Positions 10,183-29,726 of a DNA stretch of 45,699 bases are shown here, piece after piece. The notes under the pieces are model-generated. The model was not told the origin of the DNA, searched no databases, and saw nothing but the letters and a program-made list of their open reading frames with translations. Source of the DNA: Bryobacterales bacterium (lineage in GTDB: Bacteria; Acidobacteriota; Terriglobia; Bryobacterales; Bryobacteraceae); contig PLOR01000014.1 of the NCBI GenBank assembly GCA_003142185.1, positions 1 through 45,699 on the forward strand. The letters run 5' to 3'. Position 1 is the first letter of the stretch, and each line of letters begins with the position of its first letter. Position numbers and translations under genes: made by a program.

Positions 10183-10252
10183 TCGCGACCCTGTCGAGAA
10201 GTCCCCGATCATTCCGCCCGGAAAAGCTGCCCCACGAACAGCGTGCCCCGCT

Positions 10253-11764
10253 TCAATTCACGCCGGACATCAGCCGCACCGTCGGCCGAATGAGAATCAC
10301 CAGCACTAACGCGGCGACGATGGTGCAGCCGGCCACGATGCCGAAAAGCGATGGCAGCGGTATCGAGCTATAGAGCGACGCGGCTTTGCCCGCCAGCCAG
10401 TTGCCGATGCTGATCGAGAGGAACCAGATCCCCATCATGAAACCGGCTGCGCGCGCGGGCGCCAGCTTGGTCATGGCGCTCAACCCCACCGGGCTCAGGC
10501 ACAGCTCGCCGATGGTCTGCATGAAGTATGTGCCGGTGAGCCACCACGACGATACCAGCGCGCCGTGCGCCGCCATCATGGAAGCGGGCACCAGGATGGC
10601 CAGCGCCAGGCCCGCCCAGAGCAGGCCCATCGAAAACTTGGCCGGGCTGGAAGGCTCGGCGTGGCGGCGATTCAGCGCCATCCAGAGCCACGCGAACACC
10701 GGGGCCAGCGCAATCACGAAAATCGGCTGTACGAACTGAAACCAGCTCGCGGGGAATTCGAACCCGAAGATGTGACGGTCCGTGCTGCGTTCGGCGAAAA
10801 GGCTGAGCGACGAGCCGGCCTGCTCAAAGGAGGCCCAGAAAACCGCCGACGCCACGAAGAGCACCAGGATGGCCGCCGACCGCTTGCGTTCTTCCGCCGT
10901 CCAGGTGTGCGAGAAAATCAGCCACGTAAACACTACCACCGGGATGCCCAGCAAGGCCCAACCCAGCGAATCGGAGATCAGCGCGACCGTGAAGGCGATC
11001 ACGCCGGTGGCCCCCAGCACGCCAAGCGCGGCAAACACCGCCAAGCCGGCGCCCAGCGCCCATAGGGCGTTGCGCCGCTGCCGGGCGTCCTTCGCCGCAT
11101 CGCCGGTAGACGCGGGCCGCAGGCCGGCATCGCCCAGATACTTGCCGCCGAGCACATATTGAATCAGACCGGCCAGCATCCCCAGGCCGGCCAACCCGAA
11201 CCCCAGACGCCAACTGATCCGCTCTCCCACCCAGCCGCAGAAGATGGGGGAAATCAGCGCGCCGATATTGATCCCCATGTAGAAAATGGAAAAACCGGAA
11301 TCGCGCCGCGGATCGCCCTGCCGGTAGAGTTGCCCCACAATGGTGCTGACGTTGCCTTTGAGCAGGCCCGTGCCCACCATGAGCAGTACCAGCGCCAGAT
11401 AGAACGCGCCCTGACTAGGCCCCATCAGACAGAACTCGCCGGCGGCGATGAACAAGCCGCCCAGAAGCACGGCGCGCTGTTGACCGACGATGCGGTCCGC
11501 CACCCATCCGCCGCCCAGGCACAGCAGGTAGACCATGGCGGTATAGAGGCCATAGACCGCGCCGGCCTTATCGTCGTTGAAGCCGAGCCCACCCTTGACG
11601 ATTTTGTCGGTCATGTAAAAGATGAGGATGGCGCGCATGCCGTAGTAGCTAAAGCGCTCCCACATCTCGGTGAAGAACAGCGTGGCGAGTCCGCGCGGAT
11701 GGCCGAAAAACCGGGTGTCGTACTGGGCCTGGGAAGGTTGCGCGTCGGGCGGCGTGGTCGTCAT
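10253..11764 (-). CDS. POT/PTR family proton-coupled oligopeptide transporter
   Basis: 503-aa inner-membrane transporter with about 12-14 hydrophobic helices. The N-terminal signature EMWERFSYYGMRAIL contains the ExxERFxYY motif that couples proton and peptide binding in the POT family. The second family signature is seen around FSIFYMGINIGALISP. These carriers import di- and tripeptides with protons. The gene stands alone, convergent with the BrnTA pair and divergent from the ECF sigma operon. A long palindromic repeat lies in the shared upstream region. Confidence 0.92.
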   Translation of the reverse strand: MTTTPPDAQPSQAQYDTRFFGHPRGLATLFFTEMWERFSYYGMRAILIFYMTDKIVKGGLGFNDDKAGAVYGLYTAMVYLLCLGGGWVADRIVGQQRAVLLGGLFIAAGEFCLMGPSQGAFYLALVLLMVGTGLLKGNVSTIVGQLYRQGDPRRDSGFSIFYMGINIGALISPIFCGWVGERISWRLGFGLAGLGMLAGLIQYVLGGKYLGDAGLRPASTGDAAKDARQRRNALWALGAGLAVFAALGVLGATGVIAFTVALISDSLGWALLGIPVVVFTWLIFSHTWTAEERKRSAAILVLFVASAVFWASFEQAGSSLSLFAERSTDRHIFGFEFPASWFQFVQPIFVIALAPVFAWLWMALNRRHAEPSSPAKFSMGLLWAGLALAILVPASMMAAHGALVSSWWLTGTYFMQTIGELCLSPVGLSAMTKLAPARAAGFMMGIWFLSISIGNWLAGKAASLYSSIPLPSLFGIVAGCTIVAALVLVILIRPTVRLMSGVN

Positions 11765-24144: not shown

Positions 24145-25290
24145 TTACTTGTGCGCGTTCTTGACGGCCTTCGGGCGCTCCAGTATCGACTTCAGGAATG
24201 CTACTTCTTCCGGCGAATACGGCGTGCCGTCCTGGCGGAAGATCTCGTGGAACCAGACGGCAGGCTGGCGGTCTATGTACGGGCTCTTCCAGGAATCCCA
24301 CGGCAGGTAGGTTTGCGTCTTTCCCGCCACCAGCCCCCAGTTGTACGCGCCGATGTTGTGCTTCTTGGCGATCGGCAGGATGCTCTGGAACGTGCTGCCA
24401 TTGGGCCGCGCCATGTACTCGGTGCACAGGATCGGACGATGCAGCGCCTCCAGCCAGACCACGCGCTGTTCGAATTCGTCGGGCTTCGCGTAGCTATGAA
24501 AACTCACCACATCGGAATTGTCGAGCTGGATTTTCTCCATCTCGGTCAGCTTGTCCGGGCTCGACCAGTCGCCGCGCCACAGGCCGGTGGTCAGCGGCTG
24601 CTGGGGCAAACCGCCGCGCGCAAAAGTGAAAACCTTGGGTAACAGCGCCTCGACCAGCGCGGCCTTGTTGGCCGGTTCGGTGGTGCCGTAGCTGTCATCG
24701 TTGAGATTGTCCGGCTCGTTCCACAGGTCCCAGGCCAGCACTCGCTTATCGTTTCCGAAATCGTCGATAATGTCCTGCACGTAGGCCAGCAGGTTGTCGT
24801 ATTCCTTGGGATTCATCAATGCCTGCGCGCCGGGACTTTGCACCCAGCGGGAATTATGGATGCCAGGCTGCGGCGGCCGCTGCGGGCCGATTTCGGGGAA
24901 AGGATCCCAACAGGAATCGAAGAGCACAAACAGCGTCTTGATGTGGTGCTGGTCCGCGATTTTGAGGTACGTGTTGATGCGCCGCTTGAAACCGCCTGCG
25001 TCCTTGTGCCAGGCCAGGTAGTGCAGAAACACGCGCATGGTGTTCATTCCCAGCCCTTCGGCCAAGCCCAGCTCGCGGTCGATAGTGGTGGGATCGAACG
25101 TGTCCGCCTGCCACATTTCGAGCTCGTTGGACGCGGTGGAGGGAATGAAATTAGCGCCCACCGGCCAGGCTTCCCGCGCGTACCACTGCTCAGCCTCCGC
25201 TTCCGTCCAATGCCGCTGCTGCCGATTCCGTTGTTGTCCAAAAAGAGACAGCCCGGCCAGCAGACACAGCCCGATTCGCCATGGTTTCAT
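24145..25290 (-). CDS. Exported GH5-like glycoside hydrolase
   Basis: 381 aa with a signal peptide (WRIGLCLLAGLSLFG). The TIM-barrel clan A pattern is clear: MNTMRVFLHYLAWHKD, LFVLFDSCWDPF, then the acid/base glutamate E192 in DLWNEPD and the probable nucleophile E291 in LCTEYM. FHSYAKPD between them fits strand 6. Relatives cleave beta-mannan, cellulose or xylan; the substrate cannot be assigned. It lies downstream of kdsA across a REP element and is probably transcribed separately. Confidence 0.82.
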   Translation of the reverse strand: MKPWRIGLCLLAGLSLFGQQRNRQQRHWTEAEAEQWYAREAWPVGANFIPSTASNELEMWQADTFDPTTIDRELGLAEGLGMNTMRVFLHYLAWHKDAGGFKRRINTYLKIADQHHIKTLFVLFDSCWDPFPEIGPQRPPQPGIHNSRWVQSPGAQALMNPKEYDNLLAYVQDIIDDFGNDKRVLAWDLWNEPDNLNDDSYGTTEPANKAALVEALLPKVFTFARGGLPQQPLTTGLWRGDWSSPDKLTEMEKIQLDNSDVVSFHSYAKPDEFEQRVVWLEALHRPILCTEYMARPNGSTFQSILPIAKKHNIGAYNWGLVAGKTQTYLPWDSWKSPYIDRQPAVWFHEIFRQDGTPYSPEEVAFLKSILERPKAVKNAHK

Positions 25291-25318
25291 GTTGTGCTCG
25301 CCTTGATTGTAACGTAAG

Positions 25319-25401
25319 GTGAGGCAGGTCCCCGACCTGCCAACAGCGGGGCCGCGAGGCCGCCCCTACGGGGCTGTTGGCAGGCCGGGGACCTGCCCCA
25401 C
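25319..25401. repeat. REP-like inverted pair overlapping the kdsA 3' end
   Basis: Arms at 25319-25347 and 25373-25401 are inverted copies built on GGCAGGTCCCCGACCTGCC, extended by the AACAGC flank, with a 25-nt GC-rich loop that is itself partly palindromic. The right arm lies inside the kdsA coding region and encodes its last residues and stop. Confidence 0.8.
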
Positions 25402-26211
25402 GAGCGACTTCACCAGCCCGTCGATGGCCTGCAGCCTGCGCCAGAATTGCGGCAGCAGATCGAGCCGCAGCGCGTTGGGACCGTCGGAAAGGGCCTTCTC
25501 CGGCGCGTCGTGCACTTCGACGAAAATGCCGCTCACGCCGACCGCGACAGCGGCGCGCGCCAGTGGCTCGATGAACTGCGGCTGCCCGCCGGAGACCGCG
25601 CCGGCGCCGCTCGGCAGTTGCACGCTGTGGGTGGCATCGAACACCACCGGCCACCCCGCATCGCGCATGATCTCGAGGCCGCGCATATCCACCACCAGGT
25701 TGTTGTAGCCGAACGAGGAGCCGCGCTCGGTGATGACCACCTGCGAATTTCCGGTGGAAGCCACTTTTTCCGCGGCGCGATGAATGTCGTGCGGCGCCAC
25801 GAACTGTCCCTTCTTGATGTTGACGATGCGGCCCGTGCGGCCCGCCGCCAGCAGCAGATCGGTCTGCCGGCAGAGGAAAGCGGGAATCTGCAGGATGTCG
25901 GCCACCGCGGCCACCGGTTCGGCCTGCGCCGCCTCATGAATATCGGTGAGGATCGAAAAGCCTTCCGCCTTCAGCCCGGCCAGAATGCGCAGTCCTTCGA
26001 CGAGGCCCGGCCCGCGATAGGCGTCCAGGCTGGTGCGGTTGGCCTTGTCAAACGACGCCTTGAAGACGAAGCCGCCGCCCACGGCGTCGCGAATGCCGCG
26101 CGCCATCCGGTGGACGTGCTCTTCGCTTTCGATCACGCACGGTCCGGCGATCAGCACCAGCGGACGGGGTGCCCCCTGGGCCCGGCCGAACGCGCTGAAC
26201 TCAATCGCCAT
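25366..26211 (-). CDS. kdsA: 3-deoxy-8-phosphooctulonate (Kdo-8-P) synthase
   Basis: 281 aa. It condenses phosphoenolpyruvate with arabinose-5-phosphate, an early cytoplasmic step of Kdo and LPS synthesis. Visible family blocks: [53 protein letters not shown] and [11 protein letters not shown]. The cysteine in IAGPCV suggests the metal-dependent class is possible. It overlaps pyrG by 11 nt. The last residues, [11 protein letters not shown], are encoded by a REP element, so the natural C-terminus has been replaced or extended. Confidence 0.95.
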
Positions 26212-27859
26212 TCGAATACAACGTCTCCGCTCGGTCCCGGATCTCGGCGCCCGGCCCCAGCCGCCGCTGCCGGTATTCGTAAGCGGCCCCGATGAACGCC
26301 TTAAACAGCGGATGCGGCTCCATCGGCTTGCTCTTGAACTCGGGGTGGAACTGGCAGCCCAGATACCAGGGGTGATCGGCGATCTCGCAAATCTCGACGT
26401 AGGTGTTGTCCGGCGTTTCGCCGGTGATGCGCAGGCCGGCCGCCTTCAGCCGCTCTTCGTACTCGCGGTTGAATTCGTAGCGATGGCGATGGCGCTCCTG
26501 AATCTCGCGCGTGCCGTAGGCCCCGTAGGCGAAGCTGGTCTCCGCCAGCTTGCAGGGCCAGCTTCCCAGCCGCATGGTGCCGCCCAGCTCATCCACGCCC
26601 TTGAGTTCGCGCAGCTTGAAAATCACGCGGTGTGGCGTACCCGGGTTGAACTCGGTCGAATCCGCGCCCTCCAGTCCGCACACGTTGCGCGCGTATTCGA
26701 TCACCATCGTCTGCATGCCCAGGCAAATGCCGAAGTACGGCACCTTGCGTTCGCGCGCGTAGCGAATCGAGTTGATCATGCCCTCGATACCGCGCTTGCC
26801 GAACCCGCCGGGCACCAGGATACCGTCGTAGCCTTCGAGCTGTTTCTCCCATTCCGGGCCGAGCACGCCTTCGGCTTCGATCCAGTGAATATTGACTTTC
26901 AACCGGTGCGCCAACCCGCCGTGCAGCAGAGCTTCCTTCAGGCTCTTGTAGGAATCCTCGTATTCCACGTACTTGCCCACCAGACCGATGGTCACTTCGT
27001 CGCGCGGATTCTGCATGCGCTCCAGCATGGCGGTCCAGCGGTCCAGGTTGCGCTCGCCGGTGTTGAGGTGCAACAGGCGGCAGACGATGTCGTCCACGCC
27101 TTCGCCGGCGAACATCAGCGGCACTTCGTAAACGCTTTTGACGTCGCGCGCGGTCACCACGGCTTCCACATCCACGTCGCAGAACAGCGCGATCTTCTCT
27201 TTCATTTCCTGCGAAATGAAGCGTTCCGAGCGGCAGATCAGGATATCGGGTTGGATACCGATGCCGCGCAGCTCCTTGACGCTGTGCTGAGTGGGCTTGG
27301 TCTTCAGTTCCTGCGCGGCCGCGATCCAGGGGACCAGCGTGACGTGTACGAACACGCAGTTGCCGCGTCCCTGTTCGTGGCGCATCTGGCGAAGCGCTTC
27401 GAGAAACGGCAGCGATTCGATATCGCCTACTGTGCCGCCGATTTCGGCGATCACCACGTCCACGTCCTGCGCCACCCGTTTCAGCCCGGCCTTGATTTCG
27501 TTGGTGACGTGCGGGATCACTTGCACGGTCTTGCCCAGATAATCGCCGCGGCGCTCGCGGGCGATGATCTGCTCGTAGATGCGGCCGGAGGTCAGGTTGT
27601 TGCTCTGCGTGAGCTTGGCGTGGGTGAAGCGCTCGTAGTGCCCGAGGTCGAGATCGGTTTCGGCGCCGTCGTCGGTGACGAAGACTTCGCCGTGCTGGAA
27701 CGGGCTCATGGTGCCCGGATCGACGTTGAGATACGGATCGAACTTCTGGCAGGTGACCTTCAGCCCGCGGCTCTCGAGCAGGCATCCGATGGAAGCCGCT
27801 GCGATTCCCTTGCCCAGCGACGAGACCACGCCGCCCGTTACGAATATGTATTTAGCCAT
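26201..27859 (-). CDS. pyrG: CTP synthase
   Basis: 552 aa. It aminates UTP to CTP using glutamine. The N-terminal synthase domain (about 1-270) starts [18 protein letters not shown]; the C-terminal glutaminase has its nucleophile at C379 in GICLGMQ and the HPE pair near the end. It lies between kdsB and kdsA: CTP is the co-substrate of KdsB, a known arrangement. Its start region is duplicated upstream around a REP element. The ATG at 27859 has only GGGTGAA as a ribosome-binding sequence, now 69 nt from kdsB. Confidence 0.96.
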
Positions 27860-27939
27860 ATGATTTCACCCGTTGGCAGGTCGGGGACCTGCCCCACCTT
27901 GAGCGTTACGAAAATGTATTTGGCCATATCAATTCACCC
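27836..27939 (-). repeat. Duplicated pyrG start flanking a REP element
   Basis: Copies at 27836-27871 and 27904-27939 match at 32 of 36 positions. Each holds GGGTGAA, an ATG and the first eight pyrG codons; two of the four differences are synonymous (GCC/GCT, ATT/ATA). Between them, at 27872-27897, is one REP-like arm (GTTGGCAGGTC...GACCTGCCCCAC). The upstream copy abuts the kdsB stop, as pyrG probably did originally. Confidence 0.8.
27838..27927 (-). CDS. 29-codon frame made of a pyrG start copy plus REP
   Basis: The upstream copy of the pyrG start opens with ATG one base after the kdsB stop. It reads the first eight PyrG residues (MAKYIFVT), then [14 protein letters not shown] from the REP, and stops at a TAA inside pyrG codons 7-8 in another frame. 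It keeps the ancestral ribosome site GGGGGTGAAT. If translated, it would carry ribosomes across the REP hairpin onto the pyrG start. It may instead be a translated fossil with no role. Confidence 0.3.
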
Positions 27940-28675
27940 CCGGCATCATGGAAGCTTCGAAGAGCCGCGAGACCCGTTCCAGGTCTTCGGGCGTATCCAC
28001 GCCCAGCGACTCATAGTCGGTTTCGATTACCCGTATGGGGTACCCGTTCTCGAGAGCGCGCAGTTGCTCCAGGCGCTCGGCCCGCTCGAGCGGGCCCACC
28101 GGCAGGCGCGAATAGCCCAACAGAAAATCCCGCCGATACACGTAGAGCCCGATATGTTTGAACCACGCGCCGTCCTGTTCCCGCGTATAGGGGATGGCGC
28201 AGCGCGAAAAGTAAATCGCGTCCCCGGCATGGTTAGCCACCACCTTCACCACGTTGGGATCGTCGATTTCGCGCGGGTCTTCGATCTTTTTCTTCAGCGT
28301 CGCCATCACCACTTCGGAATCGTGAAACAGGGGCAGAATGGCGGCGTCGATGGCGGCGGGATCGATCAGCGGCTCGTCGCCTTGAATGTTGACCACCACC
28401 GCAGCCTCTTCGGCCGAGGCGACTTCCGCCACGCGGTCGGTGCCGGAGAGATGGTCGGCTCGCGTCATGCGGACCCGCGCTCCGAAACTCCTGGCGGCCT
28501 CATAAACCCGCTTGTCGTCAGTCGCGATGATAATGTCCGACAGGTAACGCGACTGGCAGGCGCGCTCATAGACGTGCTGCAAAACTGTTTTTGAGGAGAG
28601 GAGCGCCAGAACCTTGCCAGGAAAACGTGTAGAGCCAAATCGCGCGGGAATCACGCCCAGAATTTTACGGGGCAC
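27929..28675 (-). CDS. kdsB: CMP-Kdo synthetase (3-deoxy-manno-octulosonate cytidylyltransferase)
   Basis: 248 aa. It activates Kdo with CTP for LPS assembly. Conserved blocks: GVIPARFGSTRFPGKVL, IIIATDDKRV, DHLSGTDRVAEV, VNIQGDEPLI, and HIGLYVYRRDFL. The start is GTG at 28675, without a Shine-Dalgarno sequence. It heads the kdsB-pyrG-kdsA run; a TGGTATGAT extended -10 element just upstream suggests transcription begins at or next to the start codon. It is divergent from the VWA gene. Confidence 0.95.
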   Translation of the reverse strand: MPRKILGVIPARFGSTRFPGKVLALLSSKTVLQHVYERACQSRYLSDIIIATDDKRVYEAARSFGARVRMTRADHLSGTDRVAEVASAEEAAVVVNIQGDEPLIDPAAIDAAILPLFHDSEVVMATLKKKIEDPREIDDPNVVKVVANHAGDAIYFSRCAIPYTREQDGAWFKHIGLYVYRRDFLLGYSRLPVGPLERAERLEQLRALENGYPIRVIETDYESLGVDTPEDLERVSRLFEASMMPGVN

Positions 28676-28680
28676 ACAGG

Positions 28681-28689
28681 ATCATACCA
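28681..28689 (-). promoter_or_regulatory. Extended -10 promoter element of kdsB
   Basis: On the minus strand TGG-TATGAT matches an extended -10 (TGn plus a hexamer with 5 of 6 consensus bases). The -35 region is poor. Seven nucleotides downstream is the GTG start, so the mRNA may be leaderless. Confidence 0.4.
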
Positions 28690-28736
28690 TAAAACCCCTG
28701 TGATAGACTTGGTGTAGAAATGCTGGCCTGACAGCT

Positions 28737-29726
28737 ATGCTCCTGTCCCGGTGTGAGCTGCCCGTCGTCCTCGCCGCCTTCCTGGGTTTCTCATTTTGGG
28801 CGCAAGCTCAGGAGCCCGGTGGCTCTCCCGCTACCATCGCGCCGAGGCCCAAGGCGGCCGGAAAAGAGCAGGTTCTTCCTAAGGCCAACATCCGCGTGGA
28901 TACCACGCTGGTGCTGATTCCGGTTACCGTGACCGATCCCATGAACCGCTTCGTCACCGGCCTGGAAAAAGAGAATTTCAAGGTATTCGAAGACAAGAAG
29001 GAACAGGAAATCAGCCAGTTCTCGAGTGAAGACGCGCCGCTTTCGGCGGGCGTGATATTCGATTGCAGCGGCAGCATGGGCCACAAACTGGAAAAATCGC
29101 GGCTGGCGGTTTCCGAGTTCTTCAAGACCGCCAACCCGGAGGACGAGTTCTTCCTGATCCAGTTCAACGATACGGCTAATCTGGTGCAGCCCTTCACGCA
29201 AAATCTGGAGGAAATTCAAAACCGCCTGACGTTCACTTTCTCGAGAGGCCGAACCGCGCTGCTCGATGCCGTCTTTCTCGGTCTGCACACCATGAAGCGG
29301 GCGAAGAATCCGCGAAAGGCACTGCTGATCATCTCCGACGGCGGCGACAACAACAGCCGGTACACGGAAGCGGAAATCAAGAACCTGGTGAGGGAAGCGG
29401 ACGTCCAAATCTATGCGATTGGAATTTACGAGGAAGGCCCGGCGCGCTCGCGGAGCCCGGAGGAGAGCGCCGGCCCGGCGCTGTTGGCCACCATCGCCGA
29501 ACAGACCGGTGGGCGGCAGTATGAAGTGGACAACTTGAACGAACTTCCGGACGTGGCGGCGAAAATCGGCGTGGAATTGCGGAACCAGTACGTGCTCGGG
29601 TATAGCCCGCAAAATCTCGATCGCGACGGCAAATACCGCCATGTGGTAGTGAAGGTGATTCCGCCGCGCGGTCTGCCGCTGCTGCGGCCCTTCTGGAGAC
29701 TGGGATATTATGCTCCTTCGCAATAG
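28737..29726 (+). CDS. Acidobacterial VWFA-type secreted protein, first of a pair
   Basis: 329 aa with a signal peptide (VVLAAFLGFSFWAQAQ). A beta strand segment (NIRVDTTLVLIPVTVTDPMN, NFKVFEDKKEQEI) precedes a von Willebrand A domain (about 102-290). Its MIDAS residues are D109, S111 and S113 (FDCSGSMG), with GRTALLDAV and ISDGGDN later. The ending NQYVLGYSP...GYY is typical of the acidobacterial VWFA-related family (TIGR03436, from memory). It is probably a periplasmic or surface metal-dependent adhesion or assembly protein. It overlaps the next VWA gene by 17 nt. Confidence 0.88.
   Translation: MLLSRCELPVVLAAFLGFSFWAQAQEPGGSPATIAPRPKAAGKEQVLPKANIRVDTTLVLIPVTVTDPMNRFVTGLEKENFKVFEDKKEQEISQFSSEDAPLSAGVIFDCSGSMGHKLEKSRLAVSEFFKTANPEDEFFLIQFNDTANLVQPFTQNLEEIQNRLTFTFSRGRTALLDAVFLGLHTMKRAKNPRKALLIISDGGDNNSRYTEAEIKNLVREADVQIYAIGIYEEGPARSRSPEESAGPALLATIAEQTGGRQYEVDNLNELPDVAAKIGVELRNQYVLGYSPQNLDRDGKYRHVVVKVIPPRGLPLLRPFWRLGYYAPSQ

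Follow-up and report, generated by a model that had tools for sequence, protein, structure and literature searches.

A REP unit gained between duplicated ends of kdsB and pyrG, likely by template switching

A duplicated junction between kdsB and pyrG

The window, by which we mean the whole 45.7-kb stretch of DNA that was analysed, is part of contig C79 of G000, the genome of an uncultured acidobacterium (5.79 Mb in 119 contigs). On its minus strand kdsB is followed by pyrG and then by a kdsA-like gene (Table 1). We take the first gene to be kdsB from its Pfam family together with the gene neighbourhood, and gene names that go beyond the Pfam families are likewise assumed from general knowledge. 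Among the matches listed, the closest named KdsB relatives belonged to Bryobacterales, Solibacter and Solibacteraceae bins of the Acidobacteriota. The second gene, pyrG, is an essential gene. No sigma-70-type promoter was predicted in positions 25200-28800, where 0.8 was expected, and the same region held 5 terminator-like sites (3.0 in shuffled sequences), none of them at the REP between kdsB and pyrG. A search of positions 27500-28300 against Rfam gave no match at E values up to 1.

A 32-nt REP unit separates two 36-nt copies of the kdsB-pyrG junction. The copies are identical at 32 of 36 bases, and a pair this good is expected by chance 1.9e-10 times in a 601-bp region and 9.6e-9 times across the window at distances of up to 200 nt. 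No other such pair was found in the 45.7 kb under the rule that we applied (ungapped 36-mers, at least 31/36 identical, period 37-200). The last base of the kdsB stop (27929) falls inside copy 1, whose ATG (27927) begins 1 nt later, and a GGGTGA motif six nt before the ATG is retained in both copies. An assembly artefact is unlikely because the two copies differ at 4 sites.

Working from the letters only, the first-pass annotation had placed both copies around a REP element at these coordinates and had noted that the upstream copy adjoins the kdsB stop and is open for 29 codons, ending inside pyrG in another frame. Both statements were borne out. It had also taken the spacer to be one REP arm; the spacer is instead a whole hairpin, with a predicted 8-bp stem (GGCAGGTC/GACCTGCC) and a 3-nt loop. 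In the titles and abstract starts of the open-licence literature we found no publication describing this kdsB-pyrG junction.

Table 1. Features of the kdsB-pyrG-kdsA-like region of the window
Feature	Positions	Strand	Description
kdsB (CMP-KDO synthetase), 248 aa	27929..28675	-	ORF; Pfam PF02348 CTP_transf_3, 3e-53; last codons and stop within copy 1
Copy 1 of the 36-nt duplication	27904..27939	-	kdsB end and stop, old pyrG ribosome site, ATG, first 8 codons
Inserted 32-nt REP unit	27872..27903	-	CTCAAG, 23-nt core (27897-27875), AAC; full hairpin
Copy 2 of the duplication	27836..27871	-	ribosome site (GGGTGA), ATG, first 8 codons, in frame with pyrG
29-codon frame from the copy-1 ATG	27838..27927	-	ends 22 nt inside pyrG (ATG 27859), in another frame
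pyrG (CTP synthase), 552 aa	26201..27859	-	ORF; Pfam PF06418, 1.8e-129, and PF00117, 1.6e-40
kdsA-like gene, next on the strand after pyrG	25366..26211	-	ORF; Pfam PF00793, 1.6e-64

The junction is single in a congener and in other relatives

The comparison within the genus was made with one congener, G001 (91% complete). G001 aligns to both halves of the window (at its positions 10325-11096 and 10189-10360), and the two alignments overlap in G001 by exactly 36 nt, with window position 27904 corresponding to 10325 and 27871 to 10360. G001 is thus an exact empty site in which the junction is present once. The gain in the window amounts to 68 nt, and the gap between the kdsB stop and the pyrG start is 1 nt in G001 and 69 nt in the window. 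Read from the aligned sequences, this empty site documents the gain of the REP together with the 36-nt junction duplication as an event.

We examined 110 loci, 67 of which had a readable pyrG start. A second junction copy within 300 nt upstream of that start was found in the window only (32/36); the same search gave none at the 66 other loci, where the best match was 20/36. These 66 are loci rather than species, and L014/L115 and L018/L116 have identical junction letters. A check of the junction in related genomes had been proposed with the first description, and its outcome is that the single copy is ancestral by parsimony. By the same reasoning the REP and the duplication would have been gained on the branch of the window, after its split from G001. 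A single copy would also result if G001 had undergone an exact deletion between the repeats.

The copies differ from each other at 4/36 sites and each differs from G001 at 6 or 7/36, so the duplication is not a fresh event. Four sites have the same base in both copies and a different one in G001, and since the relatives L109, L113 and L108 carry the base of the copies at some of them, these sites do not date the duplication. Where the copies differ on the pyrG side, G001 matches copy 2 at both sites, as do L109 and L113, while L108, L112 and L015 match copy 1 at one. On the kdsB side G001 matches copy 1 at one site and neither copy at the other. Such a pattern would be expected if copy 1 holds kdsB and copy 2 holds pyrG, and we read it as a tendency only, because the differing sites are so few and so variable. 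Third-position sites are highly variable among the relatives, and the drift of each copy is weakly readable. A duplication of a different type occurs at the same junction in L015 (G031), where the 3' end of kdsB carries small repeats of the TTTGAAGCGACAGT kind.

The REP family in G000

The 23-nt core of the REP has 95 matches in G000 at up to 2 mismatches, and the reversed pattern, used as a control, has 0. The core is perfect in 33 of the 95, and these copies are probably young, to judge from their sequence. G001 has 15 matches, eight more genomes of this bacterial family have 0 to 3 each, and on the sequences compared the core is an expansion of the lineage to which the window belongs. The units agree with bacterial REPs in being short palindromes that form hairpins and in occurring as many near-identical copies, mostly outside genes. 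We looked for a Y1 transposase gene with this REP at its sides; G000 has 7 Y1_Tnp matches, and no REP core lay near any of the 7 (about 1.5 kb of flank, 19-nt core, up to 4 mismatches). Many genomes with REPs have no REP-associated Y1 transposase gene.

The family analyses cover 88 of the 95 matches (the window and the G000 loci L001-L008 and L041-L100). One of these, 60 nt from a contig end, was left out of the test for flanking repeats (n=87). A long flanking repeat was present at 1/87 copies, namely the one at the kdsB-pyrG junction, and a direct repeat at most insertions, as for a transposable element, was accordingly not seen in this family. At a score of at least 12 there were 2 copies with flanking matches versus 0.34 expected, and at a score of at least 8 there were 19/87 versus 11.3. 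This slight excess of short matches leaves room for very short flanking repeats as a trait of the family. The next best case after the window is L084 (minus strand), where an exact 13-nt direct repeat (CTCGGCCAACAGC) flanks the REP at 81 nt from start to start; none of the shuffled control pairs reached that score.

The original work on REPs next to stop codons in E. coli is said to be that of Liang et al. in 2015. In G000 the core starts -4 to 8 nt past the end of a same-strand frame of at least 100 codons in 43/88 cases, versus 4/88 on the opposite side, and -4 to 54 nt past it in 57/88; these are frames, not annotated genes. The stop codon (TGA) lies inside the REP in 5 cases, and in another 5 the last base of the stop is the first base of the REP. 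The placement resembles that in E. coli, where REPs occur close behind stop codons according to the relevant part of a recent paper (PMC12306157). At least one REP is part of a coding sequence, in its reading frame (L070:492-514), which has AAMVGQVSDLPQRAHIQACQGETD where the congener has AARDGAIQASSGETD. That coding sequence presumably corresponds to queA, which it resembles.

A flank match of at least 60 nt in G001 was obtained for 22/88 REP sites with 838,643 bases of G001 compared, about one seventh of it. Ten sites, the window included, were aligned to G001. L048 is one clean gain without duplication, and no gain other than this one and that of the window could be read cleanly. The REP is present in G001 as well at three of the ten (L056, L002 and L086), L001 and L070 were not simple, and L081, L055 and L050 matched on one side only. 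L088, outside these ten, had both flanks matched in G001. When the whole of G001 was searched, both flanks of L043 were matched, and L041, L061, L059 and L052 had flanks on different contigs or a match on one side only.

Origin of the duplicated junction

Templated insertions arise by template switching and have microhomology at their joints. We think it likely that the REP was gained at the abutting junction of kdsB and pyrG, together with the 36-nt duplication, by a template switch during replication, and that the copy-1 start is left over from it. Synthesis would have run through the pyrG start to ...GTAACG and then switched, via the common AACG, to a REP that carried the linker AACGCTCAA. 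About 30 nt of that REP would have been copied, to ...CCAACGG, before a return via GG about 36 nt upstream, so that the junction was copied twice. As the sequence reads, kdsB ends in copy 1 and pyrG starts in copy 2, which is presumably the start in use; the copy-1 start codon and the 29-codon frame would be left-overs.

The nearest REP copy to the junction unit is C33, which matches it at 37/38 nt including the linker AACGCTCAA. Among 87 copies, C33 is the one other copy that has this linker and the AACGG that follows. When all of G000 was searched for the pattern, the exact linker stood directly before a REP core in the window and at C33 only, with two more places at 3 mismatches. The duplicated stretch of pyrG likewise ends in AACG, and that of kdsB begins with GG. 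Common bases at both joints are the pattern that a switch to a REP and back would leave. In G001 the C33 site showed no REP at up to 5 mismatches; the donor could therefore be either copy, or both could come from a third. With a single event to go on, just 4 and 2 nt in common at the joints and C33 as the one similar copy, the route remains likely.

Where a stop and the next start are separated by 1 nt, an insertion would as a rule damage one of the two genes; with a duplication spanning both ends it would be survivable. Here both genes are whole because the duplicated stretch includes the kdsB stop as well as the ribosome site and first codons of pyrG. The present effect is most likely small, namely the change in kdsB-pyrG spacing from 1 nt to 69 nt with what is modelled as a stable mRNA hairpin in between.

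The earlier proposal that the locus records a REP insertion with a long target duplication holds as history, given the empty site in G001 and the lack of second copies at the 66 other loci, and fails as a habit of the REP family. Long duplications are not a property of the family (1/87, and L048 is clean), so this is not an ordinary target-site duplication, and the idea that such duplication is a family trait was rejected. If the REP were a mobile element inserted by a REP-associated Y1 transposase that makes long target-site duplications, the copy-REP-copy layout and the empty site would be explained, and the 7 Y1_Tnp matches would supply candidates for the enzyme. We consider this extremely improbable, since flanks of such a kind occur at 1/87 copies even though 33/95 cores are perfect and probably young, L048 was gained cleanly, and the REP core is absent from about 1.5 kb of flank at all 7 Y1_Tnp loci. 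Moreover, in the part of one paper that deals with IS200/IS605 elements (PMC2817692), known members are described as making no larger target duplications.

A history in two steps would leave nearly identical sequence. Slippage would have made a 36-nt tandem duplication, and a REP would later have landed in the dispensable seam between the copies. Short tandem duplications do occur in the sister genome without this REP (L213, period 44; L219, period 97), the kdsB tail of G031 has small repeats, and L048 is a REP gain that came without duplication. Two events would nevertheless be required at the same base, and the C33 match spans the left joint through the common AACG. Perfect tandem repeats are unstable. 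Weighing these points we hold the two-step history to be unlikely, though worth keeping in view, and favour template switching.

The 29-codon frame and its possible function

The earlier description had also suggested that the upstream start acts as a translated leader that opens the REP hairpin and couples CTP supply to KdsB. Ribosomes finishing kdsB would restart at the copy-1 ATG, cross the REP hairpin and tune pyrG. The copy-1 ATG does retain its GGGTGA and lies 1 nt after the kdsB stop. In the predicted fold the linker of the insert pairs with the GGG of the pyrG ribosome site at a probability of 0.46, extending the REP stem by a few pairs, and a ribosome on copy 1 would open this pairing. 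The mean predicted exposure of the pyrG ribosome site is below that of G001 (0.32 versus 0.52), and the direct repeats persist although they differ at 4/36 sites, for which neutral survival accounts too.

The length of the frame, in contrast, is the default outcome, because 70/88 REP units of G000 placed between the same ends in a simulation gave exactly 29 codons, as did 58 per cent of random 32-mers. The frame ends 22 nt inside pyrG. One study cited in the part of a review that treats coupling (PMC12548453) found that coupling falls with overlap, has nearly vanished at about this distance and is gone at 25 nt. Mean predicted exposure of the ribosome site is about equal whether the insert is present (0.32) or absent (0.38), the pyrG ATG is more exposed with it (0.33, versus 0.04 without; 0.33 in G001), and the local fold as a whole is no more stable than shuffled sequences (z 0.32). 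None of the 66 other loci at which the pyrG start could be read has the second start, and the 29-aa peptide has no known domain. The proposal of a leader thus finds some footing in the predicted pairing and in the lower exposure relative to G001, and little support otherwise; we regard it as very doubtful. The 29-codon frame is probably incidental, and to see a by-product in the extra start codon is the likelier reading than to see a new regulator.

Selection might also have kept the insertion for the opposite effect. Ribosomes leaving kdsB would enter a 29-codon decoy through the old pyrG site, and pyrG would start at the duplicated site, part of which the REP linker would cover. CTP synthase would thereby be uncoupled from KDO activation and tuned apart from it. 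We judge this improbable; if it were true, the survival of direct repeats that slippage could erase would be a sign of selection. Going by the sequence and the modelled folds, nothing yet indicates that the extra start codon matters for pyrG.

Relation to known systems

From the junction one can read how an operon of abutting genes can take up a short palindrome with neither gene broken, the gene ends being copied along, and it is a clear fossil of how short repeated hairpins spread. If the REP families of this order spread by template switching and not by a transposase, scars of this kind for which a sister species has the empty site would provide a direct test. The insert is like templated insertions in matching another locus, in sharing short bases at the joints and in the local duplication. 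It is unlike them in that the papers listed are mostly eukaryotic and that its route is read here from sequence alone. Compared with bacterial REPs, it is alike as a short GC-rich hairpin with about 95 copies in G000, and differs in lying inside an operon between duplicated gene ends and in belonging to a genome where no Y1 transposase gene was found to have this REP as a neighbour.

In G001 the kdsB stop is followed after 1 nt by an ATG, an arrangement like that of termination-restart coupling as presented in the pertinent section of the review (PMC12548453), whereas in the window the insert leaves kdsB and pyrG 69 nt apart with a hairpin in between. In 9 of the 27 junctions measured, the window's included, the stop overlaps the pyrG start (gap -8).

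REPs also occur at the far end of this operon. A second REP (core 25401-25379) encodes the C-terminal end of the kdsA-like protein (11 residues, then the stop), and an additional core lies near the 3' end of the gene (25319-25341). In the congener G001 the kdsA-like gene ends in KSLPAV and a stop, without a REP.
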